DNA of 24,169 nt from positions 1 through 24,169 of the IMG/VR virus record IMGVR_UViG_3300023196_003765, one strand, 5' to 3'. This document shows, piece by piece, positions 1 to 12,854 of this stretch (position 1 is the stretch's first letter; each line of letters begins with the position of its first letter). The position numbers and the translations under genes were made by a program. The notes below the pieces were generated by a model. It was not told where the DNA came from. It worked only from the letters and a program-made list of their open reading frames with translations, and ran no database searches. The DNA is from a virus.

Positions 1-405
1 CCCCATCTTTGCGAAAAAGACGATATATACTGCTCTACGGGCAGTTTAGGCATGGGTATAACAGTAGCTGTTGGAAGAGCAATAGCAAATCCAGATCGTA
101 CGGTGTACTGTTTAATAAGTGATGGTGAATGTGCAGAAGGTAGTATCTGGGAAGCATTAAAATTTATCTACGAAAATAATATAAAAAACATCAAAATATA
201 TGTAAATGTAAATGGATATGCAGCATATGATTCAATTGACACAAAATACCTTGTCGACCGATTGAAAGTATTTATGCCTAATATAGAAATAATTTACACA
301 GAAGTCGGTACTTTTCCATTCCTAAGAGGACTTAATGCACATTATCATGTAATGAGCGAAAAAGATTACAATTTTGCTAAAAGGATTATCAACAATGAGG
401 CGTGA
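1..405 (+). CDS. Transketolase N-terminal (TPP-binding) subunit, 5' partial
   Basis: The reading frame is open from base 1, so the gene begins before the window. An apparent ATG at 52 is internal: the codons before it already encode the conserved transketolase stretch CSTGSLGMGITVAVGRA. The next motif, SDGECAEGSIWEA, is the family's GDG/E-G-x-WEA thiamine diphosphate and metal site, with Ser in place of the first Gly, followed by NVNGYAAYD as the second part of the TPP motif. The frame ends after a LRGLNAHYH segment typical of the end of the TPP half. The protein is a separate subunit; the pyrimidine half is the next gene, overlapping by 11 bases. In other surface-sugar loci split transketolases are thought to transfer a two-carbon unit to a sugar. 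That role is inferred here; the family assignment is secure. Confidence 0.9.
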   Translation, partial: PHLCEKDDIYCSTGSLGMGITVAVGRAIANPDRTVYCLISDGECAEGSIWEALKFIYENNIKNIKIYVNVNGYAAYDSIDTKYLVDRLKVFMPNIEIIYTEVGTFPFLRGLNAHYHVMSEKDYNFAKRIINNEA

Positions 406-871
406 CTTTGCTGAAAGATTACATTTAGAAATGGGTAAAAACAAAGACATATATCTTTTGACTGGCGATCTTGGATATGGGTTGTGGGATCGAATTCGAA
501 TAGACTACCAAGACAGGTTTTATAATGTAGGATCCTCTGAACAACTAATGCTTGGAATGGCTAGTGGTTTAGCAATGGAAGGTAAAATACCTGTTGTATA
601 TTCTATCACACCATTTTTACTTTACCGACCTTTTGAGTTTATTAGAAATTATGTTAATCACGAAAAACTAGCAGTCAAATTAATTGGTGGTGGGAGAGAC
701 CGTGATTATGGTTATTTGGGTTTTTCCCATTGGGCAGAAGAAGATAAAGATATTATGAAAAACTTTAATAATATTAAAACTTTACACCCAAAAGATATAA
801 AATCAATGCAACAAGATTTTCAATATGTGATAGATAAAAAAACACCGGTATACCTGAACCTAAAAAGATGA
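395..871 (+). CDS. Transketolase pyrimidine-domain subunit (C-terminal half, short)
   Basis: This 158-residue protein matches the pyrimidine-binding domain of transketolase-like enzymes. It shows NVGSSEQLMLGMASGLAMEG around residues 44-63, with the conserved Glu49 that activates TPP, then a GFSHWAEEDKDIM segment like the family's G-x-T/S-H-x-x-E-D. I chose ATG 395, inside the end of the TPP subunit, because AAGGA lies about 10 bases upstream; a TTG at 374 is also possible. The usual third transketolase domain (about 120 residues after the pyrimidine domain) is absent, so the enzyme is a minimal two-domain form. It should pair with the preceding subunit, since the active site lies at the interface. 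The stop overlaps the next start as ATGA, indicating translational coupling. Confidence 0.88.
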   Translation: MRRDFAERLHLEMGKNKDIYLLTGDLGYGLWDRIRIDYQDRFYNVGSSEQLMLGMASGLAMEGKIPVVYSITPFLLYRPFEFIRNYVNHEKLAVKLIGGGRDRDYGYLGFSHWAEEDKDIMKNFNNIKTLHPKDIKSMQQDFQYVIDKKTPVYLNLKR

Positions 872-1716
872 AAGTATTAATAACTGGATGCAATGGATTC
901 TTAGGAAAAGAGTTAACACGTTATTTTTCCAAAAAACACACAGTCATTGCCACAAATAGAAAAACATTAGATCCAACTAACATAAACAGTGTTTCTTCGT
1001 TTTTTAAAAAAAATAAAATTGATATTGTGATTCACACTGCTGTTAAAGGTGGAAAAAGAACCCATAAAGATCGTATCGAAGATTTATACGAAAACATTAA
1101 AATGTTTGATAACCTATCTTCATTTTCTGATTATTACAAAGCTTTATTTAATTTTGGTTCAGGAGCAGAATTCGATAGAAATAAAAACATTCATCTAGTC
1201 GATGAAACTGATGTTTATAGCGCATTTCCAACAGATTATTATGGATTATCAAAAAATTTAATTACTAGACGAATTAATGATTTAAATTCTAATATTTTTA
1301 ATTTAAGATTATATGGCTGCTTTGGGTTTTATGAAGAAGAGCAGCGTCTTTTTCGTTCAATTTTTAATAAAATTTCTAATGCTGAGCCAATTGAAATATA
1401 TCAAGACAAATATATGGATTATTTTTATGCGCAAGATGTTGGAAAGGTAATAGAGCATCTATCAAACAATGTGGATAAATTAATCAAAAAAGATTATAAC
1501 CTTAGTTATGACAAAAAATATAAATTGAGCGAGTTATCTTTTAAAATTAAAAGTTTGACAAACCACAAACAAAATGTTATTATTAGTAATAATGATTTAG
1601 GTTTTTCTTACACAGGCTCAAATAATAGATTAAAAAAATTAGATATCAATTTATGTGGTCTCGATGAAGGTCTAAAAAATTGCTACATCGAATGGAGAAA
1701 TAATGGATACCGATGA
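868..1716 (+). CDS. NAD-dependent epimerase/dehydratase-family sugar reductase
   Basis: This is a 282-residue extended-SDR protein. The N-terminal Rossmann motif TGCNGFLG (residues 6-13) binds NAD(P), and the catalytic pair is Tyr125-x3-Lys129 in YYGLSK. The downstream R-L-Y-G-C-F-G segment is typical of the NAD-dependent epimerase family. It starts on an ATGA overlap with the transketolase subunit and ends 14 bases into the glycosyltransferase-like gene. The substrate cannot be read from the sequence. Next to a split transketolase and an RfbH-type dehydratase, reduction of a 4-keto or branched keto sugar (the job of YerF in yersiniose synthesis) is a plausible inference. It could equally be a 4-keto reductase or epimerase of another nucleotide sugar. 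Confidence 0.8.
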   Translation: MKVLITGCNGFLGKELTRYFSKKHTVIATNRKTLDPTNINSVSSFFKKNKIDIVIHTAVKGGKRTHKDRIEDLYENIKMFDNLSSFSDYYKALFNFGSGAEFDRNKNIHLVDETDVYSAFPTDYYGLSKNLITRRINDLNSNIFNLRLYGCFGFYEEEQRLFRSIFNKISNAEPIEIYQDKYMDYFYAQDVGKVIEHLSNNVDKLIKKDYNLSYDKKYKLSELSFKIKSLTNHKQNVIISNNDLGFSYTGSNNRLKKLDINLCGLDEGLKNCYIEWRNNGYR

Positions 1717-2767
1717 AAATAAAGAACAACTGTTAGACTTGATTGTCTATATCACAAGTTCGGGTCCCAATACAGAAGACAAAAGATATTGGGGAAATCT
1801 TTTTGAATGTTTGACATCTTTGTGTGATAGTTTAAAAGATGTTAATTATAAATTTTATATTGTTGTAAACAACGATGAATACAAACAGTTTGTTGAAAGT
1901 CTTTTTAATCATAAACAATATCGCGCTTTTATTAATCAAGAATCATTGCTTGAAGTAGTGAATTCAACTAAAACATGGACTGAGTGTTATGTTGACTTTT
2001 TTGAAAAACATAACGAAAAAGCTGAGTATCTTTTAATATCACACGATGACATATTAATTAGACACAGGGGTTTCCTCCAAGAGACATTAAAACTCTTAGA
2101 AGACAAAGAAGAGCCAGTAGCATGGATTACTTTTACAAATGTTAAACATTACTTATATCCTGAAAACAGAAACTCAATTTCAAATTCAGTAAAAAATCCA
2201 TTTGCAAAAGACCGACTTAATCACCCTTGTCTATACGAATGTCACAAATTTGAGAAAGGACAGAGAGTAAAGGTTGAAAGCGACCAATACAATAAATTAA
2301 TGTCTTTTTCAGTTAATAAAAGTTATGACAAACACCTTGTGTGGACAAAAGAAGCAAATCTTGATTTCCCGTCCAACCCTGTTAAAGTTTTCGGACCATA
2401 CTCTCATTTAAATTTGATTAGTTTTGATGCAGCAAGAACAATTGGGCCGCCATCTAATTGGAGCGAGTATACTATTTTTATGGATGATGATTGGAGCATG
2501 GCTGCACTGACAAAAAATTATAACAATGTGTGGATACCAAATGTTCATTATGTACATCCAAACCCAAGGTACACTTCTCTTAGAAAACCGGGCACTGATT
2601 TAAGATATGTTCAAGAGACAGCTACAAAATTTGAACAAAAATGGGGATTCAATCCCGATGGCGAGTTGACAGATGATAACTTAAAAAGTATGATGTTAAA
2701 ATATAGTGATACGCATGTATTTTCTGTTATGAATAAAAATACTTATGATTGGGATTACTTAAAATGA
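1703..2767 (+). CDS. Glycosyltransferase-like protein (GT-A type, putative)
   Basis: The product is 354 residues and starts with a hydrophobic beta strand (LIVYITSSG, about residues 13-21). It carries an acidic motif, SHDDILI (about 113-119), placed like the DxD metal and nucleotide site of GT-A glycosyltransferases, and a later FMDDDWSMAA that resembles the acceptor-side acidic motif. No signal peptide or membrane segment is evident, so it probably acts in the cytoplasm. GGAGAA lies just upstream of ATG 1703, inside the end of the reductase gene. Its place between the reductase and the RfbH-type gene suggests that it transfers a sugar made by this cluster. The class assignment is moderate; donor and acceptor are unknown. 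Confidence 0.6.
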   Translation: MDTDENKEQLLDLIVYITSSGPNTEDKRYWGNLFECLTSLCDSLKDVNYKFYIVVNNDEYKQFVESLFNHKQYRAFINQESLLEVVNSTKTWTECYVDFFEKHNEKAEYLLISHDDILIRHRGFLQETLKLLEDKEEPVAWITFTNVKHYLYPENRNSISNSVKNPFAKDRLNHPCLYECHKFEKGQRVKVESDQYNKLMSFSVNKSYDKHLVWTKEANLDFPSNPVKVFGPYSHLNLISFDAARTIGPPSNWSEYTIFMDDDWSMAALTKNYNNVWIPNVHYVHPNPRYTSLRKPGTDLRYVQETATKFEQKWGFNPDGELTDDNLKSMMLKYSDTHVFSVMNKNTYDWDYLK

Positions 2768-4098
2768 ATAAGTTAGAGCAAATTTTACATCTTGTTGAAG
2801 ATTATATTGCTGAAAAAGAAGGTAATGTTTCATGGGAACCCGGAAAAGACTGGATCTCATACTCTGGTCCACATTTTAACAAAGATGAATATGTAGAAGC
2901 CATTAAGGTATTGCTGAATGGTTGGTTAATATTTGGAGAAAATAGTAGGCAATTTGAAAAAACGTTTCCAGAACATTTAGGCAAAAAACACGGAAGTTTA
3001 ACTAATTCAGGTTCATCAGCAAACCTTTTAGCCATTACATCTTTAAAATCTAAAAATACATTTAATTTACCAGAAGGCAGTAAATTTATCACACCAGTTG
3101 TATGCTTTCCAACAACTATTAACCCTCTTATACAAAATGGCTTTGTGCCAGTTTTTGTCGATGTGACTTTACCAGATATTAATTTAGATCTTGATCAAAT
3201 GGAACAAAAATTAAAAGAAGATCCTGACATAAAAGGCGTCGTGTTTGCTCACACCATGGGCAATCCACCCGATATGGACAGATTTATGTCGCTTGTCGAT
3301 AAGTATGACTTAATTTTTATTGAGGACGCATGTGATTCGTTAGGTGGTTATTATGACGGTAAGAAGTTGGGATCGTTTGGTGTTGTTTCAACATGCTCCT
3401 TTTTTCCAGCACATCATATGACTATGGGCGAAGGCGGCTTTATTGCAACCGATAATAATAAAATTAGAAAAGTAATTGCCAGTATAAGAGATTGGGGCCG
3501 CGCCTGTTATTGCAACACAGCTAAGCCCGGATGTGTAATTAACAGCACAGCATGTGGCAATCGATTTAAAAATTGGTTACCAGCGCTTCCAGAAGCAGTC
3601 TATGATCACAGGTATGTTTTTGATGAAATTGGATACAATTTAAAACCTTTGGATCTGCAAGCAGCATTGGGATTAGAACAAATTAAAAAATTGCCTGAAT
3701 TAGATGAGGCCAGAAGAAAAAATTTCAACCTTTTGTCTGAAATATTTGAGCCGTATAAAAAATACCTACACTTGCCAAAGCCAACAGAAAAAGCTGATCC
3801 GTGTTGGTTTGGATATTTGATGACTGTTCGAACAGACGCTCCATTTTCTAAACAAGAATTAGTTTCTTGGCTTGAACAAAACAAAATACAAACACGTTCA
3901 TATTTTGCTGGTAATGTATTATATCACCCGGGTTACTCCGCGCTTGCAGAAAAACACGAAGACCTTAACTCCGAATTTCCAATTGCAAAAATTGTTACAA
4001 CAAATAGTTTTTTTCTTGGCACCTATATTGGTTTAAGCACTGAAAAAATGGAATATATTAGAAATACAGTTGTAGAATTTTTTGAGGCTTTTGAATGA
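2764..4098 (+). CDS. rfbH: RfbH/DdhC-type 4-dehydro-6-deoxyhexose 3-dehydratase ([2Fe-2S], PMP-dependent)
   Basis: This 444-residue DegT-fold protein belongs to the E1/RfbH branch, which removes the C3 hydroxyl of an NDP-4-keto-6-deoxyhexose using PMP and an iron-sulfur cluster, the first step to 3,6-dideoxy sugars. Conserved blocks are NSGSSANLLA (81-90), FPTTINPLIQNG (115-126), IEDACDSLGG (186-195) and HHMTMGEGG (217-225). The usual PLP-binding Lys is His217, as in E1 and ColD. Cysteines fall at 190, 248 and 250, i.e. C-x57-C-x-C, matching the E1 [2Fe-2S] ligand spacing as I recall it, with Cys264 the likely fourth ligand after a short insertion. Start is ATG 2764 on an ATGA overlap; an upstream TTG is less likely. 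The reductase partner (DdhD/E3) is not in this window. Confidence 0.9.
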   Translation: MNKLEQILHLVEDYIAEKEGNVSWEPGKDWISYSGPHFNKDEYVEAIKVLLNGWLIFGENSRQFEKTFPEHLGKKHGSLTNSGSSANLLAITSLKSKNTFNLPEGSKFITPVVCFPTTINPLIQNGFVPVFVDVTLPDINLDLDQMEQKLKEDPDIKGVVFAHTMGNPPDMDRFMSLVDKYDLIFIEDACDSLGGYYDGKKLGSFGVVSTCSFFPAHHMTMGEGGFIATDNNKIRKVIASIRDWGRACYCNTAKPGCVINSTACGNRFKNWLPALPEAVYDHRYVFDEIGYNLKPLDLQAALGLEQIKKLPELDEARRKNFNLLSEIFEPYKKYLHLPKPTEKADPCWFGYLMTVRTDAPFSKQELVSWLEQNKIQTRSYFAGNVLYHPGYSALAEKHEDLNSEFPIAKIVTTNSFFLGTYIGLSTEKMEYIRNTVVEFFEAFE

Positions 4099-5045
4099 AA
4101 ATAGTTTATATTACTGGTTGTCTTGGGTTTATTGGCTCATATATAACCAAAAAATGTATAGAAAAAGGCTGGATGGTATATGGTGTTGATAAATGCACAT
4201 ACGTTGCAAACACATCATTATTACAAGAATTTAAAAAATACAATAATTTTAAATTCTTAAAAGAAGATATTAAAAACCTTAAACATTTATACGATTGCGA
4301 TTATGTAATAAATACAGCCGCTGAATCACACGTCGGAAATAGTATTATTAGCAGTAAAGAATTTATTGATAGTAATATTGTTGGTGTTCAAAATTTACTA
4401 GATTTGATACGAAACAAGCCTGTTAATTGTAATAGAAGACCTATATTCTTTCATTTTAGTACCGATGAGGTATATGGCGATATTACTGATGGAGAGCATA
4501 CAGAAACAGATTTATTACACCCCAGTAACCCATATTCTGCTGCCAAAGCAGCAGCAGATATGCTGGTTTTAGCATGGGCAAGAACATACAATGTTGAGTA
4601 TGTTATTTTACGACCTACAAACAACTACGGGATTGGACAATATCCAGAAAAGCTAATTCCGTTATCTGTTAAAAATCTAATGAGAAATAAAAAGATCAGA
4701 CTTCATGATGGAGGCACACCCGTAAGAAACTGGTTGCATGCTGACGATACTGCCGAAGCAGTTTTAAAAATTATTGAATCTGAAAAAATTAATGAAATTT
4801 ACAATGTATCTGGTGGTTTCGAACAAAAAAATATAGAAACAGTATTAAAAATTATTGAAAACTACTTTACTGCCGATTATAAATGGGAAGAGTATATTGA
4901 CTTTTCTTATTCTCGTGTTGGTCAAGATGTCAGATATTCCTTAAACGATGATAAACTGCGCTCATTAGGCTGGGCCCCTCAAAAAATATTTAATAAAGAA
5001 ATTCAAAATATTGTTGAATATTATAAAGAAAAATTTATATGGTAA
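4095..5045 (+). CDS. rmlB: dTDP-glucose 4,6-dehydratase-like (RmlB family)
   Basis: This is a 316-residue extended SDR with strong RmlB hallmarks: TGCLGFIGS for NAD binding (7-15), VDKCTYVAN (31-39), AAESHVGNS (75-83), the catalytic STDEVYGD (122-129, Asp124/Glu125), YSAAK (Tyr147/Lys151) and RPTNNYGIGQYPEKLIP. The family converts dTDP-glucose to dTDP-4-keto-6-deoxyglucose in the cytoplasm. It starts by an ATGA overlap with the 3-dehydratase gene, so the two products are made together; a 4,6-dehydratase would supply exactly the 4-keto-6-deoxy substrate that the 3-dehydratase uses. The nucleotide (dTDP or CDP) cannot be fixed by eye. No sugar-1-phosphate nucleotidyltransferase (RmlA or RfbF) is present here. 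Confidence 0.87.
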   Translation: MKIVYITGCLGFIGSYITKKCIEKGWMVYGVDKCTYVANTSLLQEFKKYNNFKFLKEDIKNLKHLYDCDYVINTAAESHVGNSIISSKEFIDSNIVGVQNLLDLIRNKPVNCNRRPIFFHFSTDEVYGDITDGEHTETDLLHPSNPYSAAKAAADMLVLAWARTYNVEYVILRPTNNYGIGQYPEKLIPLSVKNLMRNKKIRLHDGGTPVRNWLHADDTAEAVLKIIESEKINEIYNVSGGFEQKNIETVLKIIENYFTADYKWEEYIDFSYSRVGQDVRYSLNDDKLRSLGWAPQKIFNKEIQNIVEYYKEKFIW

Positions 5046-5049
5046 AAAA

Positions 5050-5937
5050 ATGAACGATAAAGAATACAATGAAATCTCAACAAAATTAATGTTTAAACAA
5101 TATGTAAATCAATTTTACAATGAAACCTTTTTAAAAGACGCGGCATTGACTGATACAATTGAAAAAGAAAAATTTAAAAGCGATATGCTTATTGGTGTTG
5201 ATAAACTCTATGATGCTAGAAATAAATACAAAAATCGACCTGCTTTAATTATGGGCCTAGGTCCTAGCTTGTTAGAAATAGACAAAGAAAAGTATAAGGA
5301 TCATTTAAAAATAACTTGTAACCATTTTTATAGGGTACCAGATTTTTTTGAGGATTCTTTTAAGCCTGATATATGGTGTGCCGCTAATTCTTTTTCTGAA
5401 TTAGAAGAGCCTTTTAAAATTTGTTTACAAAGAGAAATAGAAGCTTTTATTACTATTCCAATAAGAACCGAATTCAATTCTCTATTGGAGATAGCAAGGA
5501 AGGAAAACAAAATGAGCCTTGTTACACCTTGGTTGTGGGAACAGCGTTTTTTCCAAAACGTATTAGCAGCCGAATTTGGTGTAAAGAAAATTTATTCAAG
5601 ATGTAACACAATAACTAATCACATGATAGCTTACGCTCTTTATTTAGGTTGTAACCCAATTGTTATTACCGGTTTTGATCTATCATATAAAAAAGCATTA
5701 GAAAAGTATGGTATTACACACGCAGGGTTTAGTGATAATCAGCGCGCACTCGATATGGGGTTAGACATTGATGCATTTGACAACCCACAAGAAAAAAATC
5801 AAATATTACATGATCTTAGTTATATGTGTCATTTAGGAAAAGCTAGTGATCAGGTTATAATAAATTTGTCTCATGAATCTAATGGGCTTCCACTTGAACT
5901 AACTGAAAATTTCAACTGGACAGCACCCACTACATGA
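5050..5937 (+). CDS. DUF115 / Maf-MptE-like protein, possible nonulosonate transferase
   Basis: The 295-residue product carries a MAF/DUF115-type core: a strand then MGLGPSL (68-74), a nucleotide-binding-like loop, followed by TCNHFYR, a central helix-strand region and VITGFDLSY near the C-terminus. The family includes flagellar motility accessory factors, which attach nonulosonic acids to flagellin, and the archaeal pterin enzyme MptE. Automatic annotation often uses the MptE name. Here the next gene is a CMP-sugar synthetase and NeuB genes follow, which favours a CMP-nonulosonate-dependent transferase. It is much shorter than flagellar Maf (usually 600 or more residues), so only the core domain is present. 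ATG 5050 follows the rmlB stop by 4 bases, with a weak ribosome site. Confidence 0.65.
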   Translation: MNDKEYNEISTKLMFKQYVNQFYNETFLKDAALTDTIEKEKFKSDMLIGVDKLYDARNKYKNRPALIMGLGPSLLEIDKEKYKDHLKITCNHFYRVPDFFEDSFKPDIWCAANSFSELEEPFKICLQREIEAFITIPIRTEFNSLLEIARKENKMSLVTPWLWEQRFFQNVLAAEFGVKKIYSRCNTITNHMIAYALYLGCNPIVITGFDLSYKKALEKYGITHAGFSDNQRALDMGLDIDAFDNPQEKNQILHDLSYMCHLGKASDQVIINLSHESNGLPLELTENFNWTAPTT

Positions 5938-6698
5938 GTAAAAATAATTCTATATTTATAACTGTAAGAAGTAATTCTAATAGATTGCCCGGAAAAGCAT
6001 ACAAGAAAATTAAAGAAAAACATACTATTGAATATGTTATTTCCCAAGCAAAAAAATCAAAACTAGCAAAAAATGTAATTCTTTGCACAACAGACTTGCA
6101 AGAAGATGATTTATTGTGTAGAATAGCAGAAGACAATAAAATATTATATTTTAGAGGAAGCGAAATTGACAAATTAGAAAGATGGAATGGCGCTTGTCAA
6201 AAATTTAACGTAGATTTTTTTGTCACAGCTGATGGTGATGATTTGTTTTGTTCTCATGAATTATTTGATTTAGCGTTTGAACAAAATAACAACGAACCTT
6301 GTGATTTTATTTATGGAGATGAGCTTGTTTGTGGTAGCTTTACTTATGGAATCGACAGTAACGCTTTGAAAAAAGTATGTGATATTAAAGACACAGATGA
6401 TACTGAAATGATGTGGGTATATTTTACAGAAACAAATTTATTCAATACGAAGCCATTAAACAATGTTCCAAAAATATTTAAACGAAAAGATATACGTATG
6501 ACGTTAGATTACGAAGATGATTTTCAGTTTTTTTCTAGTGTTGTGAATTCGATGAACAAAGAAAATTTTAATACAAGAGATGTTTTAAATTTTTTAGACC
6601 AAAACAAGAATATAATTGATATAAATTTTTATTTAGAAGACCAATGGAAGTCTAATCAACTTTCAAAAACAAAATTAACAATTAAGGAATTAAAATGA
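5934..6698 (+). CDS. Cytidylyltransferase, SpsF/NeuA-like (CMP-sugar acid synthetase)
   Basis: The 254-residue product has the nucleotidyltransferase signature ITVRSNSNRLPGKAYKKI (9-26), equivalent to the A-R-x-x-S-x-R-L-P-G-K of SpsF and NeuA proteins. FRGSEIDKLERW (73-84) and TADGDDLF (98-105) follow, the latter positioned as the metal-binding acidic motif. The family activates nonulosonic acids or related sugar acids with CTP in the cytoplasm. It overlaps the Maf-like gene by ATGA and the aminotransferase gene by ATGA. The first Arg of the usual R-M-x-S-x-R motif is kept, but the loop is Asn-rich. With the intact NeuB homologue at 9747 it would form the synthase-activation pair of a CMP-nonulosonate pathway. 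The exact acid is unknown. Confidence 0.8.
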   Translation: MSKNNSIFITVRSNSNRLPGKAYKKIKEKHTIEYVISQAKKSKLAKNVILCTTDLQEDDLLCRIAEDNKILYFRGSEIDKLERWNGACQKFNVDFFVTADGDDLFCSHELFDLAFEQNNNEPCDFIYGDELVCGSFTYGIDSNALKKVCDIKDTDDTEMMWVYFTETNLFNTKPLNNVPKIFKRKDIRMTLDYEDDFQFFSSVVNSMNKENFNTRDVLNFLDQNKNIIDINFYLEDQWKSNQLSKTKLTIKELK

Positions 6699-7687
6699 CA
6701 AAAAAAGAAAGAGTAACTTATCACTGCGGCGAATGGGTACCAGAATCAAAAGCATCTATTCATATTTATGACTCACAATTTATGTTTGGCGATGGTGTAT
6801 TTGAGATGGCACGAACTTTTAATCACAAGTTTTTTTTATTGGAAGAGCATGTTGAACGTCTGTTTAGAAGTATGAGATATTTGCAAATTCCAATAACTAA
6901 AACAAAAAAAGAAGTTATTGAATTATGTCACGAAACACTCGAAAAGAATATTGAGCATTTTAGATTTAACGACGACGGAGATCCAGAAGAGTGCAGGATT
7001 ATGATTAATGTTTCACGCGGACCTCTTGCAATTTACAGAGAAGTATTTGAATTACAAAAAGGCCAAGAATGGAATGAGCCAACTTGGATTATTAATGCAT
7101 GGCCACTTAGCAAGACAGCACGTGCCCTAGGTCACTTTTATAATACAGGTGTAAACGCTGTTATACCCCCTCAAAGACAAATACCAGCCAGACTTTTAGA
7201 AAATAAAGTAAAAAACAGAAGCAGAATGCATTATCAAATGGCAAACTTGCAAACAAAACCATTTGGCAAAGATGCAATGCCTTTGTTGTTAGATGAAGAT
7301 GGGTTCGTTACAGAAAGCACAGGCGCTAATTTTATTATGATTAAAAACGAAAAACTTATTGTACCAGAATTAAGGAATATGCTGCGTGGTTCCAGTATGG
7401 TTTATATTACAGATGTGTTGGCACCACAACTTAATCTTGAAGTTGAATATAAAAATTTTGAACCATACGATGTTATGGATTGTGATGAGGCGATGTTTAC
7501 AGGTACCTATATTAACCTACTTCCTTGTAACAGATTAAATGGAGATTATTTTGATGAATCATTGGTTAGCGATCCTTTTGGACCTGTAACAAAAAAAATA
7601 TGTGAAGGCTGGTCGCAAAATGTTGGTATTGATTTTATTAGCCAGATTAAAAATTGGTCTAAAAATTATAATGGAGATTTTCTATAA
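6695..7687 (+). CDS. Class IV (fold type IV) PLP aminotransferase, IlvE/D-amino-acid transaminase family
   Basis: This is a 330-residue protein of the branched-chain / D-amino-acid aminotransferase family. The N-terminus has IYDSQFMFGDGVFEMAR (24-40), the family's opening motif. The PLP-binding lysine is most likely Lys173 in VKNRSRMHYQMAN, and DGFVTESTGANF (202-213) with Glu207 is the conserved cofactor-side motif. Such enzymes transaminate alpha-keto acids or amino acids rather than nucleotide sugars, which is unusual inside a sugar operon. It may make an amino acid used to decorate the glycan, or act on the keto group of a sugar acid made by the NeuB homologue; both are inference. Coupled by 4-base and 1-base overlaps to its neighbours. 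Confidence 0.85.
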   Translation: MTKKERVTYHCGEWVPESKASIHIYDSQFMFGDGVFEMARTFNHKFFLLEEHVERLFRSMRYLQIPITKTKKEVIELCHETLEKNIEHFRFNDDGDPEECRIMINVSRGPLAIYREVFELQKGQEWNEPTWIINAWPLSKTARALGHFYNTGVNAVIPPQRQIPARLLENKVKNRSRMHYQMANLQTKPFGKDAMPLLLDEDGFVTESTGANFIMIKNEKLIVPELRNMLRGSSMVYITDVLAPQLNLEVEYKNFEPYDVMDCDEAMFTGTYINLLPCNRLNGDYFDESLVSDPFGPVTKKICEGWSQNVGIDFISQIKNWSKNYNGDFL

Positions 7688-8430
7688 TGATAATTTCTGA
7701 AATCGGTTTAAATCATTTGGGAGATTATAAATTAGCATATCACTATGTCAGTCAACTTTTGACGACAGATGTTGATGCGATTACTTTTCAAATTAGAGAA
7801 CCAGAGTTCTATACAGGGCAGTTTAAAAATTTTAAATTAACTCCCACTGAATATAAATCTTTGAAAACTAGAATTAATAATTCGGGTAAGCTTTTTGGTT
7901 ATGCAATTTCAGACATTCCCAATTTTGATGAGTTGGATGCAGATTTTTTTAAAATTTTAAGCAAAGACTTAAATAATCTGAGTTTTATTGAAAAACTTGC
8001 CGAACATGTAAAAAACAAGCCGATTTATTTTTCTACTGGTATGAGCGGTCATGATATAATTCAAGAGACAATTAATGCATGTGAGAAACAAGGTTTTGAA
8101 GATTACAGACTAATACACACAAGGCTATCAAATTGTATTGATGAAGTTAATTTAAAAGCTATCAATAATATGAAAAACAAATTTGGAAATATTGTTGCTT
8201 TCGGCAACCATTGCGAAAATACTAATGTGTTATACACAGCAGTAGCTTATGAGCCAACCGACTATTATTTCTATGTAAAAAACAAAAAACAAAATTACCA
8301 CCCTGACGACTCCCATGCAATTTATTTAGATGATGTTCAGACATACTGTTCAAATATAAATGATTTAATTAGGTCGTTAGGCAGCGGTAATAAAACTAAC
8401 ACTAATAACACAATAAAGGGGCAAACATGA
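7687..8430 (+). CDS. Degenerate NeuB-like TIM-barrel protein
   Basis: At 247 residues it keeps the NeuB fold markers EIGLNHLG (5-12), KILSKD (89-94) and YFSTGMSGHD (114-123), so it is related to sialic acid synthase and its paralogues. Several catalytic positions differ from the intact homologue at 9747. The lysine of the K-F-Q motif is Thr33, the G-Y-S-x-H motif is AFGNH (171-175), and the second metal-binding His after the E-R-H motif is missing (region 191-198 is TDYYFYVK). There is no C-terminal SAF domain. It is therefore unlikely to catalyse normal PEP condensation and may be a diverged enzyme or a partner subunit. It starts on a TAATG overlap with the aminotransferase. Confidence 0.7.
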   Translation: MIISEIGLNHLGDYKLAYHYVSQLLTTDVDAITFQIREPEFYTGQFKNFKLTPTEYKSLKTRINNSGKLFGYAISDIPNFDELDADFFKILSKDLNNLSFIEKLAEHVKNKPIYFSTGMSGHDIIQETINACEKQGFEDYRLIHTRLSNCIDEVNLKAINNMKNKFGNIVAFGNHCENTNVLYTAVAYEPTDYYFYVKNKKQNYHPDDSHAIYLDDVQTYCSNINDLIRSLGSGNKTNTNNTIKGQT

Positions 8431-9074
8431 AAAAAGCAATAGTTTTAGGAGGTACCAGAGGAATCGGCGGTGCCATAGCAAAGAGTTTAGATGAAATTGG
8501 ATTAGACGTCCATGCCTTTTCATCCAAAGCAGTAGATACAGGTAATTTAGAACATATCGACGTATTGGTAACAAACCATCCAGAGGTTGATGTTTTGGTT
8601 CTAAACACCGGTGGACCACCGGCCATAGATTTTTTTAATATTAAAAAGGAAACTTGGGAAAAATATCACAACCAATTATTTTTAGGTTTTTGTACATTAC
8701 TACAAAATATTAATATTAAGGATAATGGATATGTATTTTTAGTTTCTTCTTTTAATATTAGAGAACCTGATCCAAAGTTACTATTGTCTAATTCGTACAG
8801 AATGGCTTTTGTTAGCGTTTTCAAAAGCCTAAGTAAGATATTCGCAAATAGAAAGATAAGCTTCGTTAACATAGCCCCGGGGCCGATTAATACCGATAGA
8901 TTAACGTCGCTAGGTGTTGATATCGAAGAGCTGGGTAAAAAACTTCCAATGGGATATGTTGCTGAACCATCTGAAATTGGTAATTTTGTATCTGCACTAG
9001 TGGATAAGGAAATTAATTATTTATCAGGAGTAACCATTAATTTCGATGGTGCCGCCAGCAACTATGTCCTATAA
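8427..9074 (+). CDS. Short-chain dehydrogenase/reductase, atypical active site
   Basis: This 215-residue SDR begins with GGTRGIGGAIAKS (8-20), the TGxxxGxG cofactor motif of classical SDRs, and has LNTGGPPAIDF (59-69) in place of NAG. It ends with SGVTINFDGAASNYVL, as SDRs end with G-x-x-x-x-x-D-G-G. A catalytic Ser is available at 107/108 and Tyr at 124, but the residue four on, normally Lys, is Phe128. This NTGGP subgroup of SDRs often lacks the canonical YxxxK, so the protein may be a reductase with another mechanism. The gene overlaps the NeuB-like gene by ATGA and the next SDR by 11 bases. The substrate is probably a keto intermediate of the sugar-acid pathway (inference). Confidence 0.78.
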   Translation: MKKAIVLGGTRGIGGAIAKSLDEIGLDVHAFSSKAVDTGNLEHIDVLVTNHPEVDVLVLNTGGPPAIDFFNIKKETWEKYHNQLFLGFCTLLQNINIKDNGYVFLVSSFNIREPDPKLLLSNSYRMAFVSVFKSLSKIFANRKISFVNIAPGPINTDRLTSLGVDIEELGKKLPMGYVAEPSEIGNFVSALVDKEINYLSGVTINFDGAASNYVL

Positions 9075-9753
9075 GAAAAGAATAGTTATTACAGGCGCCT
9101 CTGGGTTAATTGGGGGCCAGCTATTAAAAGATTTATCTGATGAATATGAAATATTAAAACTTGATTTATCAACTGGTCATGATTTAACAAATGAAAATTT
9201 TGTTGAAGAATGGTTTAAAGAAAACAATGATTTACATGGTATGATTGTGTGTCACGCATACAATCCATTACCATTAAAAGAAACAAAAAAAATTGAACCA
9301 ATTGATCAAAGTATTGAAGAGTTGAGAAGCTATTATGAGGTAAATGTAATAAGTGCATTTAATGTGTGCCGGCACTTTATAAAAAATAATAAATCCGGTT
9401 CAATAATCAATATTTCATCTTTATATGGTTTAAACTCACCCAAACATAATATATATAATAATTTCACAAAGCCGATTGGTTATTCTCTTACAAAAAGCTC
9501 AATTATTGCAATGACAAAATATTTAGCAACTTATTATGCACCCGATTATCGGTTTAATGCGGTTGTTTTAGGTGGAGTTTATGACGAAAGATTTGACAAA
9601 TCTTTTATAATGAATTATAATGAACATACACCATTTAAAAGAATGATGAATGTTGAAGAAACAACAGGGATATTTAAATATCTGATGAGTGATTCTTCTA
9701 GCTATACAACAGGTGGTGTTTTCGTTGTTGATGGAGGTTGGACAGCATGGTAA
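9064..9753 (+). CDS. Short-chain dehydrogenase/reductase with intact catalytic triad
   Basis: A 229-residue classical SDR: TGASGLIGG (10-18) for NAD(P), NVISAFN (94-100), IINISSLYG (114-122) with the catalytic Ser, and Tyr140-x3-Lys144 in YSLTKSS. The end is GGVFVVDGGWTAW. ATG 9064 was preferred over ATG 9046 because the Rossmann strand then begins at the usual distance; both overlap the upstream SDR gene. Its end overlaps the neuB gene by 7 bases and its DNA carries that gene's ribosome-binding site. With the upstream SDR it forms a tandem pair between two NeuB-like genes, which suggests two redox steps on the same sugar or sugar acid. The substrate is not known. Confidence 0.85.
   Translation: MSYKKRIVITGASGLIGGQLLKDLSDEYEILKLDLSTGHDLTNENFVEEWFKENNDLHGMIVCHAYNPLPLKETKKIEPIDQSIEELRSYYEVNVISAFNVCRHFIKNNKSGSIINISSLYGLNSPKHNIYNNFTKPIGYSLTKSSIIAMTKYLATYYAPDYRFNAVVLGGVYDERFDKSFIMNYNEHTPFKRMMNVEETTGIFKYLMSDSSSYTTGGVFVVDGGWTAW
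9733..9737 (+). promoter_or_regulatory. Strong ribosome-binding site for the neuB-like gene
   Basis: GGAGG lies inside the last codons of the SDR gene, nine bases before ATG 9747. This decides the start of the next gene against the TTG at 9738, which overlaps the site. Confidence 0.75.
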
Positions 9754-10595
9754 ATTTTAAAGAGCTTGATAAGCCATATTTAATAGGTGAAATAGGTATA
9801 AACCATAACGGTGTTTTGGAAATTACAAAAAAATTAATTGATGCAGTTTATGCTTGCTCATGGGATTGTGCAAAATTTCAAAAAAGAAATCCTGACGTAT
9901 GTGTTCCAGAACACCAAAAAAATGTTTTAAGAGAAACACCATGGGGCAAAATAAAGTATATTGATTATAAGCATAAAGTAGAATTTCAAAAATCTGAATA
10001 TGATTATATTGATCAATACTGTAAATTAAAACCAGTAGATTGGTCAGCTTCTGTTTGGGATCTTGATTCTTTGGAATTCTTGATGCAATATGAATTACCA
10101 TTTATTAAAATACCTTCTGCTATGGCTACTAATGATTTATTAGTCACCGAAACAGCAAAAACCGGCCGGCCTATTATTATGTCTACTGGTATGTGTGAGT
10201 TGGGAGAAGTTGATGAAGCCGTCAATAATGTTTTAAAACATAACAATAATCTAGTTTTAATGCACACAAATTCGAGTTATCCAACCCCAAAAGAAGAAAT
10301 TAATTTAAATTTAATACCATTTTTAAAAGAGCGTTACGACTGCCCAATTGGGTATTCTGGTCATGAAGAAGACTTAGAACCAACAGTGATTGCAGTGGCT
10401 TTGGGTGCTACCGTAGTAGAGAGGCATATAACGTTATCACACGATATGTGGGGTACCGATCAGAAATCTAGTTTAGAAGTGATGGCAATGGATATGTTAC
10501 ACAAAAGAGTTAAAGATGTTAAGACCATACTTGGCAATGCAACAAAAACTGTAACAGAAAGCGAAAAACCAATTAGAAAAAAATTGAGAGGTTAA
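9747..10595 (+). CDS. neuB: NeuB/SpsE-family sugar-acid synthase without SAF domain
   Basis: The 282-residue TIM barrel keeps the key NeuB positions: EIGINHNG (15-22), AKFQK with Lys43, IKIPSAMATN (120-129, Lys121 and Ser124), STGMCELGE (146-154), HTNSSYPTPKEEINL (173-187), GYSGHEED with His206, and VERHITLSHD with His227, the two metal-binding histidines. The family condenses phosphoenolpyruvate with a six-carbon amino sugar or other aldose to form a nine-carbon acid. Typical NeuB proteins are about 340-350 residues with a C-terminal antifreeze-like (SAF) domain that covers the partner's active site. This one stops at the linker (EKPIRKKLRG). It should feed the cytidylyltransferase at 5934. 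Which acid is made is unknown. Confidence 0.88.
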   Translation: MVNFKELDKPYLIGEIGINHNGVLEITKKLIDAVYACSWDCAKFQKRNPDVCVPEHQKNVLRETPWGKIKYIDYKHKVEFQKSEYDYIDQYCKLKPVDWSASVWDLDSLEFLMQYELPFIKIPSAMATNDLLVTETAKTGRPIIMSTGMCELGEVDEAVNNVLKHNNNLVLMHTNSSYPTPKEEINLNLIPFLKERYDCPIGYSGHEEDLEPTVIAVALGATVVERHITLSHDMWGTDQKSSLEVMAMDMLHKRVKDVKTILGNATKTVTESEKPIRKKLRG

Positions 10596-10597
10596 AT

Positions 10598-10894
10598 ATG
10601 ATTATTTTTGTAGATATTGATGAAACTATTTGTATTTCTCCGGATGATAGAAATTATTCTCTTGCAAAACCAATAGCAGAAAATATAGAAAAGATTAATG
10701 AATTATATGATAGTGGTAACACAATAATTTATTGGACCGCAAGAGGGACTGGTTCCGGACTTGATTGGTCTACAACGACAACAGAACAATTTATTGATTG
10801 GGGCGTAAAATATCATGAATTAAGATTTGGAAAACCTGTTTACGATTTATTCATTGATGATAAAAACATAAACTCAAAAGTTTTCTTTAATTAA
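10598..10894 (+). CDS. Small HAD-superfamily phosphatase-like protein
   Basis: The 98-residue product has all four HAD motifs in miniature: FVDIDETI with Asp6 and Asp8 (motif I), WTARG (46-50, motif II), Lys79 in GKPVYD (motif III) and FIDDK (85-89, Asp87/Asp88, motif IV). There is no cap domain. Such small proteins, often labelled capsule biosynthesis phosphatase, occur in bacterial and phage surface-polysaccharide clusters. Here it could remove the phosphate from a sugar-acid 9-phosphate or other phosphorylated intermediate, since NeuB-type synthases differ in whether they act on phosphosugars. It begins two bases after the neuB stop and is the last gene of this coupled block. Confidence 0.82.
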   Translation: MIIFVDIDETICISPDDRNYSLAKPIAENIEKINELYDSGNTIIYWTARGTGSGLDWSTTTTEQFIDWGVKYHELRFGKPVYDLFIDDKNINSKVFFN

Positions 10895-10905
10895 TTCAAA
10901 AGTTT
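10874..10905 (+). repeat. Pair of 10-bp direct repeats at the only gap in the sugar cluster
   Basis: TCAAAAGTTT occurs at 10874-10883 and again at 10896-10905, a 22-base period spanning the HAD stop codon and the palindrome TTAATTAA. The gap up to ATG 10933 (38 bases) is the largest in the sugar cluster and carries AGAAGGA as ribosome site for the next gene. Whether the repeats are an operator or promoter element or chance in AT-rich DNA cannot be told. Confidence 0.4.
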
Positions 10906-10932
10906 GCTATCATATAGAAGGATAAGATATAT

Positions 10933-11871
10933 ATGTCAAATTATTTAAACGAATATTTAATCACCGGTGGATCCGGTATGGTTGGAAAAAGTTTCGAAAA
11001 ACATCTTCCTGATGCTGTATTTTTATCGTCGACTGAATGTGATCTAAGATGTGATGCACAAGTAAAGGAAACATTTAAAAAATATAAGCCACAAAAAGTT
11101 GTTCATCTTGCAAGTAGAGTGGGTGGTGTGTTAGCTAATATGACTCATTTAGGTGAATTTTATTATGATAACATAATGATTAACACTAACGTCTTAGAAA
11201 ATTGTAGAACACATAATGTTGAAAAAGTTATCTCGTGCCTAAGCACATGCATCTATCCAGATAAAGTTATTTATCCGTTAACTGAGGAACAGATACACAA
11301 CGGCCCACCTCATCCTTCAAACTATACATATGCATATACTAAACGTATGATTGAAATACAATCAAAAGCTTATAGAGAACAATATGGATCAAATTTTATT
11401 TGTATTTCTCCTAATAATTTATTTGGCAAACACGATAATTTTGATTTAGAAAATTCACATTTTATTCCGGCGATTATTAGAAAAATTCATGATGCTAAAA
11501 AACAAAACAAAGGTGTTATGTTCTGGGGCGATGGTGCTCCTTTAAGAGAATTTACATATGTTGATGACATACCTGAGATATGTTTGTTTCTAATGAATGA
11601 ATACAATTTATCAGATACGATCAATATAGGTAACACAGGGGAAATATCAATTAAAGAAATAGTAAATAAAGTATCCGAGTACTTCGAATTTGATAATGAA
11701 GTTAAATGGGATATTGACAAACCAAACGGGCAATTCAGAAAGCCGTCCGACAACTCTAAACTTTTATCACTTGGTTGGGATGCATCTAAATATTCTAATT
11801 TTGATGATTCTTTAACTGAAACATGTCGCTGGTTTGAAGAAAATTATCCAAACATAAGGGGAATTAAATGA
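10933..11871 (+). CDS. fcl: GDP-L-fucose synthase (GDP-4-keto-6-deoxymannose 3,5-epimerase/4-reductase)
   Basis: The 312-residue product matches Fcl/WcaG, which turns GDP-4-keto-6-deoxy-D-mannose into GDP-L-fucose with NADPH. Visible are [10 protein letters not shown] (11-20), [10 protein letters not shown] (61-70), STCIYP (104-109), YAYTK (Tyr133/Lys137), [10 protein letters not shown] (161-170) and [10 protein letters not shown]. Ser104, Cys106, Tyr133, Lys137 and His176 fall three positions before the catalytic Ser107, Cys109, Tyr136, Lys140 and His179 of the E. coli enzyme as I recall them, so it should be active. Start ATG 10933 has AGAAGGA ten bases upstream. It precedes gmd, which supplies its substrate, with an ATGA overlap. 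Confidence 0.95.
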
Positions 11872-12854
11872 AAAAAACCGCATTAATAACTGGTATAACT
11901 GGTCAAGACGGATCGTACTTGGCCGAGCTGCTACTCGAAAAAGGCTACAAAGTAGTCGGTATCAAACGCAGAACGTCTTTGATTAACACTAATAGAATCG
12001 ATCACATATTTGATAAATTGTACAATACCTCCGATTTTGATTTAGTGTATGGTAACATGATTGATTCTGGAAATATTTATAGAATCTTACAACAATATAG
12101 ACCAACCGAAGTCTACAATCTGGCCGCACAATCGCATGTTAGAGTTTCATTTGATACACCAGAAGAAACAGCAAATGTTGTAGCAATGGGCGCGCTTAGG
12201 CTTTTAGAGGCTGTTAGAAATTTAGATCCTAAAATCAAAGTCTACCAAGCATCTTCATCTGAAATGTTTGGAGATAATCCAGAAAATCCACAATCTGAGA
12301 CCACTAGTTTGATGCCAGCTAGTCCTTATGCTTGTTCAAAAGTTTTTGCACACAACCTTTGTAGAAACTATCGAGAAAGTTATGGTATGCACTTATCTAG
12401 CGGTATACTTTTTAATCATGAATCACCGCGCCGCGGCGAAACATTTGTTACCCGCAAAATTACCAAAGCAGCCGCAAGAATAAAATTAGGCTTACAAGAT
12501 AAACTATATTTAGGGAATCTAGATGCTAAAAGAGATTGGGGCTTTGCCGGCGATTATGTCGAAGCAATGTGGCTCATGCTGCAACAGGAAACCCCTGACG
12601 ACTTTGTTATTGCTACCGGCGAGACTCATACCGTGAAAGAGTTTTTAAACGAAGTATTTGAATACGCTAATTTGAGTGTAGATAAATATGTTGAAGTTGA
12701 TCCGCGTCTTTTTAGACCACATGAAGTACCATTACTATTAGGTGATCCTACAAAAGCAAAAGAAAAACTAAATTGGGAACCAAAAGTTAAATTTAAACAA
12801 CTTGCTCAAATGATGTTTGATGGGGACTTAGAGAGTTTAAAAAATGGCTCATAA
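11868..12854 (+). CDS. gmd: GDP-mannose 4,6-dehydratase
   Basis: The 328-residue protein is a clear Gmd: [20 protein letters not shown] (8-27), [14 protein letters not shown] (33-46), [13 protein letters not shown] (84-96), SSSEMFGD (129-136), PYACSK with Tyr154/Lys158, and [19 protein letters not shown] (181-199). It converts GDP-mannose to GDP-4-keto-6-deoxymannose, the substrate of Fcl encoded just upstream. Length and active-site residues are normal for the family. No phosphomannomutase or mannose-1-phosphate guanylyltransferase is encoded here, so GDP-mannose would come from the host or from genes outside the window. It is the last sugar gene; its end overlaps a small phage gene by 11 bases. 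Confidence 0.97.

Follow-up and report, generated by a model that had tools for sequence, protein, structure and literature searches.

Which sugar would a marine phage make with a transketolase that is encoded next to a nucleotide-sugar 3-dehydratase? This question is raised by the left end of the virus record IMGVR_UViG_3300023196_003765, of whose 68,357 bases we studied bases 1-24169 (the window). An initial annotation, made from the letters alone, had described a coupled run of six genes within 5 kb, for a two-subunit transketolase (TKN and TKC), a reductase (SDR1), a glycosyltransferase-like protein, an E1-type 3-dehydratase and the 4,6-dehydratase RmlB, and had read them as a pathway to a branched 3,6-dideoxy sugar. 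Indeed, all six genes were confirmed at 1-5045 on the plus strand, where neighbours overlap by 4–14 bases (Table 1). Their sequences and those of their relatives point to a likely role in making a nucleotide-activated, C4-branched 3,6-dideoxysugar that the phage would use for glycosylation. That a thiamine pyrophosphate (TPP) enzyme works together with E1 and the reductase is supported because three types of TPP enzyme replace one another beside SDR1, E1 and RmlB in related phages. Moreover, the gene order of 1-5045 was found again in many different phage contigs, and the gene set is therefore not a chance arrangement.

Exchange of TPP enzymes beside SDR1, E1 and RmlB

Scans of viral contigs gave 32 loci for TKC and 49 loci for E1; loci are cited below by their L numbers, and family, motifs, gene order, co-occurrence and exchange were read from the sequences. 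The usual order is a glycosyltransferase block, a TPP enzyme, the short-chain dehydrogenase/reductase (SDR) SDR1, E1, RmlB, often GDP-fucose-type genes, and then phage genes; in L006 a gene resembling phoH precedes the sugar region. In related marine phages the TPP slot holds either the split transketolase, a YerE-like carboligase or a minimal pyruvate dehydrogenase-like (PDH-like) pair. At many loci a YerE-like enzyme of 530–640 residues stands in place of the transketolase pair, and L006 carries the transketolase pair as well as a YerE-like/PanB pair. The YerE-like protein of L006 matched PDB 8rph best, with 431 bits as compared to 243 bits for acetolactate synthase. It is frequently accompanied, here and elsewhere, by a gene for PanB (NF001452, 319 bits; cut-off 272), often directly after it, or for an HpcH/HpaI aldolase. 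In L043, L053, L059 and L190 the place of the transketolase is taken by a short pair of genes of pyruvate dehydrogenase E1 type (PF00676), and L067 has a PDH-like pair directly after E1. L043, L053, L059 and L067 were thus rejected as candidate loci without a TPP enzyme.

A TPP enzyme of one of these types lies near 40 of the 42 distinct E1s, the one in the window included. We fetched 80 loci by their upstream glycosyltransferase, so that they were not picked by E1 or by the TPP enzyme, and removed near-copies. By hidden Markov models, a TPP enzyme was present at 25/25 loci with E1 and at 18/38 loci without it (Fisher p=3.2e-6), and by BLAST at 26/26 and 15/37 loci, respectively (p=2.8e-7; one locus was corrected, its E1 being further along the same contig), with the reservation, to be counted against our reading, that both p-values overstate independence because the loci are related. 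In the BLAST-based count SDR1 was present at 26/26 loci with E1 and at 3/37 without. On the E1 tree the type of TPP enzyme changes about 15 times, and well-supported close sisters have unlike types (L050/L051, L007/L053, L038/L138). TPP enzymes have therefore been exchanged often while the combination of E1 with some TPP enzyme persisted.

PanB-YerE-like or PDH-like pairs also occur without E1 (L143, L153, L167, L173, L188; L168, L174, L184, L192). There, the TPP genes adjoin a protein of ~505 amino acids, which by eye resembles a B12-binding radical SAM enzyme, and an epimerase-like SDR, possibly for another branched sugar. In L153:4275-5600 a cytidylyltransferase-like start may run into a domain that by eye resembles PEP-mutase, a hint of phosphonate in a phage glycan. 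Lastly, the same phage cluster is held by L086, L087 and L088, from Thaumarchaeota and Maricaulis bins of metagenome-assembled genomes, which are probably phage contigs in these bins.

The two dehydratases

By its sequence, the 3-dehydratase gene of the window is a true RfbH/E1, as first annotated. The protein exceeds the cut-off of the NCBIfam RfbH model NF011936 (464.8 versus 423 bits), and in PDB it is matched best by 3bcx/3bb8, two structures of Yersinia E1 (E 1e-98). The lysine that would bind pyridoxal phosphate is replaced by a histidine in SFFPAHHMTMGEGG (active-site motif PAHH; H219, invariant), and the four cysteines for the [2Fe-2S] cluster, C191, C249, C251 and C265, are likewise invariant, with the pattern C-X57-C-X-C-X13-C, in which the spacing to the last cysteine is larger than in Yersinia E1. 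The catalytic histidine and the four-cysteine pattern are kept in 63/63 distinct E1-type sequences, that of the window included. Near a few E1 loci we observed IscU-, NfuA- and IscA-like genes for Fe-S assembly (L006:639-1580; L046:9566-9955), which might serve the E1 cluster.

For RmlB, the best NCBIfam model is that of dTDP-glucose 4,6-dehydratase (TIGR01181), with 292.9 bits, below the cut-off of 365.1, and the nearest PDB entry, 2hun, is a dTDP-glucose 4,6-dehydratase as well; the CDP-glucose dehydratase model reached only 71.6 bits. Of the two nucleotides allowed for by the initial annotation, dTDP is probable and CDP unlikely, because RmlB is of the dTDP type.

The split transketolase pair

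The two-subunit transketolase was also borne out. A TKN profile built from 21 relatives found the split transketolase 6yak as its best genuine PDB match (E 8e-21), and the TKC profile found 6yaj (E 6e-25), both from Carboxydothermus; PPR matches of TKN in PDB were rejected as repeat artefacts. In Pfam, TKN matches TPP_enzyme_C/XFP_N and not E1_dh, and TKC matches Transket_pyr (1.8e-14). The record starts inside TKN, so the sequence further left cannot be read, and TKN of the window is without about 75 N-terminal residues, complete relatives having 202-218 residues. It retains the motifs SDGE..NVNG and AHYH, to which full-length relatives add ILSxGH and GHP. In Escherichia coli transketolase (EcTK), the donor is bound by H66, H100 and H473, and at position 100 a histidine marks the transketolase type and a phenylalanine DXPS (PMC7661550). 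The donor-site histidines and the catalytic glutamate of EcTK match residues that are invariant in the phage proteins, namely H51 and H78 (numbered in TKN of L005, the N-terminal sites being taken from relatives because TKN of the window is cut) and E49 and H112 of TKC. The TPP motif, the catalytic glutamate and the donor-site histidines of a transketolase are thus all present. Of the three transketolase domains (PP, Pyr and C-terminal) the last is missing, as TKC stops after the Pyr domain, and the pair is therefore a minimal form of transketolase.

Among phage isolates, protein searches found no close TKC (best 28-35%) and only distant E1 proteins (up to about 40%), and phage records gave no match when searched at the DNA level with the 5 kb. 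In L023, L026-L028, L030-L032 and L113, genes for a cytidylyltransferase, a PfkB kinase and HAD proteins come after TKN-TKC-SDR1, an arrangement that resembles heptose activation. A minimal transketolase operon of Patescibacteria/Omnitrophota is seen in L092:7358-11410, with similar loci among L090-L122.

Proposed pathway

Of the branched-sugar reading, the joint action of a TPP enzyme with E1 and a reductase has gained support from the interchange of the three types and from the conserved donor-site histidines and glutamate; the nucleotide, the attack at C4, the donor, the stereochemistry, the role of SDR1, the product and its final target are what we infer. RmlB would convert host dTDP-glucose to dTDP-4-keto-6-deoxyglucose, from which E1 would strip the C3 oxygen, a host ferredoxin or flavodoxin reductase supplying the electrons. 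TKN/TKC would then take a two-carbon ketol unit (hydroxyacetyl) off a host donor and attach it to the C4 ketone, so that a tertiary alcohol is formed. SDR1, which lies directly 3' of the TPP genes in many loci, is proposed to act on the transferred ketol group in a YerF-like role; by reducing the new side-chain ketone it would turn the hydroxyacetyl branch of the transketolase product into dihydroxyethyl, and a glycosyltransferase would use the finished sugar. Bacterial YerE-like genes also adjoin SDR1 homologues (L097, L109, L110).

In the relatives, a YerE-like or PDH-like enzyme would extend the same C4 ketone and give other branches, and the families of the PanB-like and HpcH-like enzymes suggest that these could make 4-hydroxy-2-oxo acids as donors for the YerE-like enzyme. 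We lean towards a modular arrangement in marine T4-like phages, in which a constant RmlB-E1-SDR1 core, producing a reactive 4-keto-3,6-dideoxysugar, is combined with an exchangeable TPP carboligase, with its own donor gene (PanB/HpcH) where needed, that sets the branch. In that case the branched sugars would differ between related phages. This points to the exchange of a single enzyme as a way in which phages vary a surface sugar.

As to the target, we found no flippase (PF01943) and no WecA-type gene (PF00953) in 12 records, which speaks mildly against a lipid-linked glycan. The window encodes an MptE-like protein (PF01973), and Maf-type protein glycosyltransferases have the same fold. We therefore slightly favour phage proteins as the target of glycosylation over host lipopolysaccharide (LPS) or lipid-linked glycans.

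Counter-evidence and alternative explanations

Several observations weigh against a branched sugar as the product. The initial annotation had considered that the genes might belong to unrelated loci in related phages; the gene order as a whole recurs, but the transketolase pair is also found away from E1. At 7 of 36 distinct phage-like loci the pair lies beside PfkB/cytidylyltransferase/HAD genes of heptose type, none of them with a close E1, and operons of Patescibacteria and Omnitrophota hold it together with an epimerase-type SDR, a methyltransferase and GT2. E1 is not the sole partner of the pair. TPP enzymes of the three types are missing from the vicinity of two close E1 loci (L039, L040) and of a distant cyanophage-like E1 clade (L068-L085), and thus neither is E1 always tied to branching nor the pair to E1. 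The nearest relative of SDR1 in both PDB and NCBIfam is RmlD, and SDR1 could reduce C4 instead; the type of RmlB is the whole case for dTDP use by an E1-type enzyme. Finally, a pyrophosphorylase and a ferredoxin-type reductase (DdhD) had been expected upstream, and neither NTP_transferase (PF00483) nor a Fer2 domain (the DdhD/E3-type partner) was found in 23 related phage records, which may be incomplete. Activated glucose and electrons must therefore be supplied by the host. The E1 relative SpnQ runs on general ferredoxin or flavodoxin systems (PMC8987622), and host proteins may stand in for a dedicated E3 in the same way.

Part of this evidence would fit two separate tasks, in which a plain 3,6-dideoxyhexose is the product of RmlB, E1 and SDR1, the last reducing C4 as for abequose or paratose, and the neighbouring transketolase pair has no part in this but acts in host carbon metabolism. 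Plain dideoxyhexoses are the usual products of E1 (PMC8987622), SDR1 resembles RmlD, and the distant phage E1 loci do without TPP genes. We nevertheless regard such a division as unlikely: close E1s nearly always have a TPP enzyme nearby, three types fill the slot, and SDR1 homologues follow TPP genes even at loci without E1, in phages and in bacteria.

It is very improbable that the pair provides sedoheptulose 7-phosphate for a nucleotide heptose while E1 and RmlB make a different sugar. A sister phage group does have TKN-TKC-SDR1 followed by the kinase, cytidylyltransferase and HAD genes, but its TKC is just 52-56% identical to that of the window, and those kinase or nucleotidyltransferase genes are absent from all 20 distinct transketolase loci that have a close E1. 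Furthermore, the YerE-like or PDH-like replacements would not yield sedoheptulose. Hardly to be expected is a transfer of the ketol unit to the RmlB product, the ordinary 4-keto-6-deoxysugar, with E1 acting on another pool or later, since E1 lies between SDR1 and RmlB in the close relatives of the window and YerE and ErwE use a 3,6-dideoxy-4-keto sugar (PMC12247030), even though L011 and L016 have RmlB-TKN-TKC-SDR1 without a close E1, and L020 and L036 have RmlB together with the transketolase pair.

Relation to known systems

A 2025 review distinguishes three classes of TPP enzymes that form tertiary alcohols on ketones of branched sugars: YerE-like enzymes, which act on CDP-3,6-dideoxy-4-keto-glucose, alpha-keto-acid-dehydrogenase-like enzymes, and the split transketolases proposed for miharamycin/amipurimycin (PMC12247030). 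The three types in the phage slot correspond to these classes, which are known or proposed to branch 4-ketosugars, and the branched-sugar idea of the initial annotation is therefore well supported as a proposal.

The closest parallels to the whole run are yersiniose A of Yersinia, made with RfbH/E1, YerE and YerF, and erwiniose, made with ErwE, an enzyme that prefers 4-hydroxy-2-oxo acids (PMC12247030). They share with the window an E1-type 3-dehydratase, an adjacent TPP enzyme and an SDR reductase. In contrast to these systems, the window has a split transketolase where relatives have a YerE-like carboligase; it combines a dTDP-type RmlB with neither a pyrophosphorylase nor an E3 of its own, lacks the CDP-glucose supply (RfbF/RfbG) of the yersiniose pathway, and belongs to a phage. 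The split transketolase of Carboxydothermus hydrogenoformans (6yaj/6yak) likewise consists of two chains with the TPP and donor-site residues, whereas the phage chains are about 210 and 158 residues long and lack the C-terminal domain.

As precedent for a split transketolase the initial annotation had cited AviB1/B2 of avilamycin. This comparison failed: the related EvdU5/EvdS3 of everninomicin (AviB-type) is a heterodimeric TPP enzyme that is proposed to branch a 4-keto sugar and is pyruvate dehydrogenase-like (PMC10338323). It thus resembles the PDH-like pairs of L043, L053, L059 and L190, whereas the pair of the window is of the transketolase type. A better fit is provided by the Streptomyces split transketolases of miharamycin/amipurimycin, for which the addition of a hydroxyacetyl unit to a keto sugar has likewise been proposed; they lie in antibiotic clusters, whereas the phage pair lies beside E1 and lacks the C-terminal domain. 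Of ketone-accepting split transketolases 13 are listed so far, all from Streptomycetes, and are proposed but unproven in vitro (PMC12247030). If our reading is true, phages with the transketolase version would have a transketolase whose acceptor is the ketone of a nucleotide sugar. The phages offer dozens of small natural split-transketolase candidates with a clear substrate prediction, beside two other carboligase types that seemingly do the same job, and the question of ketone-accepting transketolases thereby becomes directly testable.

Large LPS-type clusters of T4-like cyanophages were described in 2010 with their function left open (PMC3037559), and our reading would give part of these clusters a likely function. 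The T4-like cyanophages S-SM2 and P-TIM68 have sugar clusters with a "transketolase central region-containing protein"; this protein is related to the PDH-like pair, and no E1 is annotated beside it. Consistent with the initial annotation, a limited literature search turned up no account of a branched-dideoxysugar pathway in phages, an absence that is weak evidence.

Other genes and layout of the window

Table 1. Genes at the left end of the window.
Gene	Position	Strand	Assignment
TKN	1..405	+	TPP (pyrophosphate)-binding half of minimal split transketolase; 5' part cut off by contig end
TKC	395..871	+	Pyrimidine-binding half, 158 residues; Transket_pyr match
SDR1	868..1716	+	Extended SDR, RmlD-like; Epimerase/RmlD_sub_bind match
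GT-like protein	1703..2767	+	Family not assigned; label from appearance
E1	2764..4098	+	RfbH-type nucleotide-sugar 3-dehydratase, dependent on pyridoxamine phosphate and [2Fe-2S]; NF011936
RmlB	4095..5045	+	Nucleotide-sugar 4,6-dehydratase, probably for dTDP-glucose; TIGR01181

The glycosyltransferase (GT)-like gene is present as annotated, but its label comes from the appearance of the protein, which has no Pfam or NCBIfam match. It contains the motifs SHDD and DDDW, has relatives in three other phage contigs only (L206-L208, 30-40% identity), and gave a poor AlphaFold2 model (mean pLDDT 51). The gene is an accessory gene.

Undetermined bases (N/X) occur at record position about 24167-24178, at the right edge of the window. 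Other sugar genes follow RmlB at 5050-12854, and phage structural and replication genes lie further right. Besides the MptE-like protein, the 5050-12854 run encodes a cytidylyltransferase, a class IV aminotransferase, two NeuB-like synthases, two SDRs, a small HAD-like protein, a GDP-fucose synthase-like protein and a GDP-mannose 4,6-dehydratase. These genes account for at least two more activated sugars beyond that of 1-5045.

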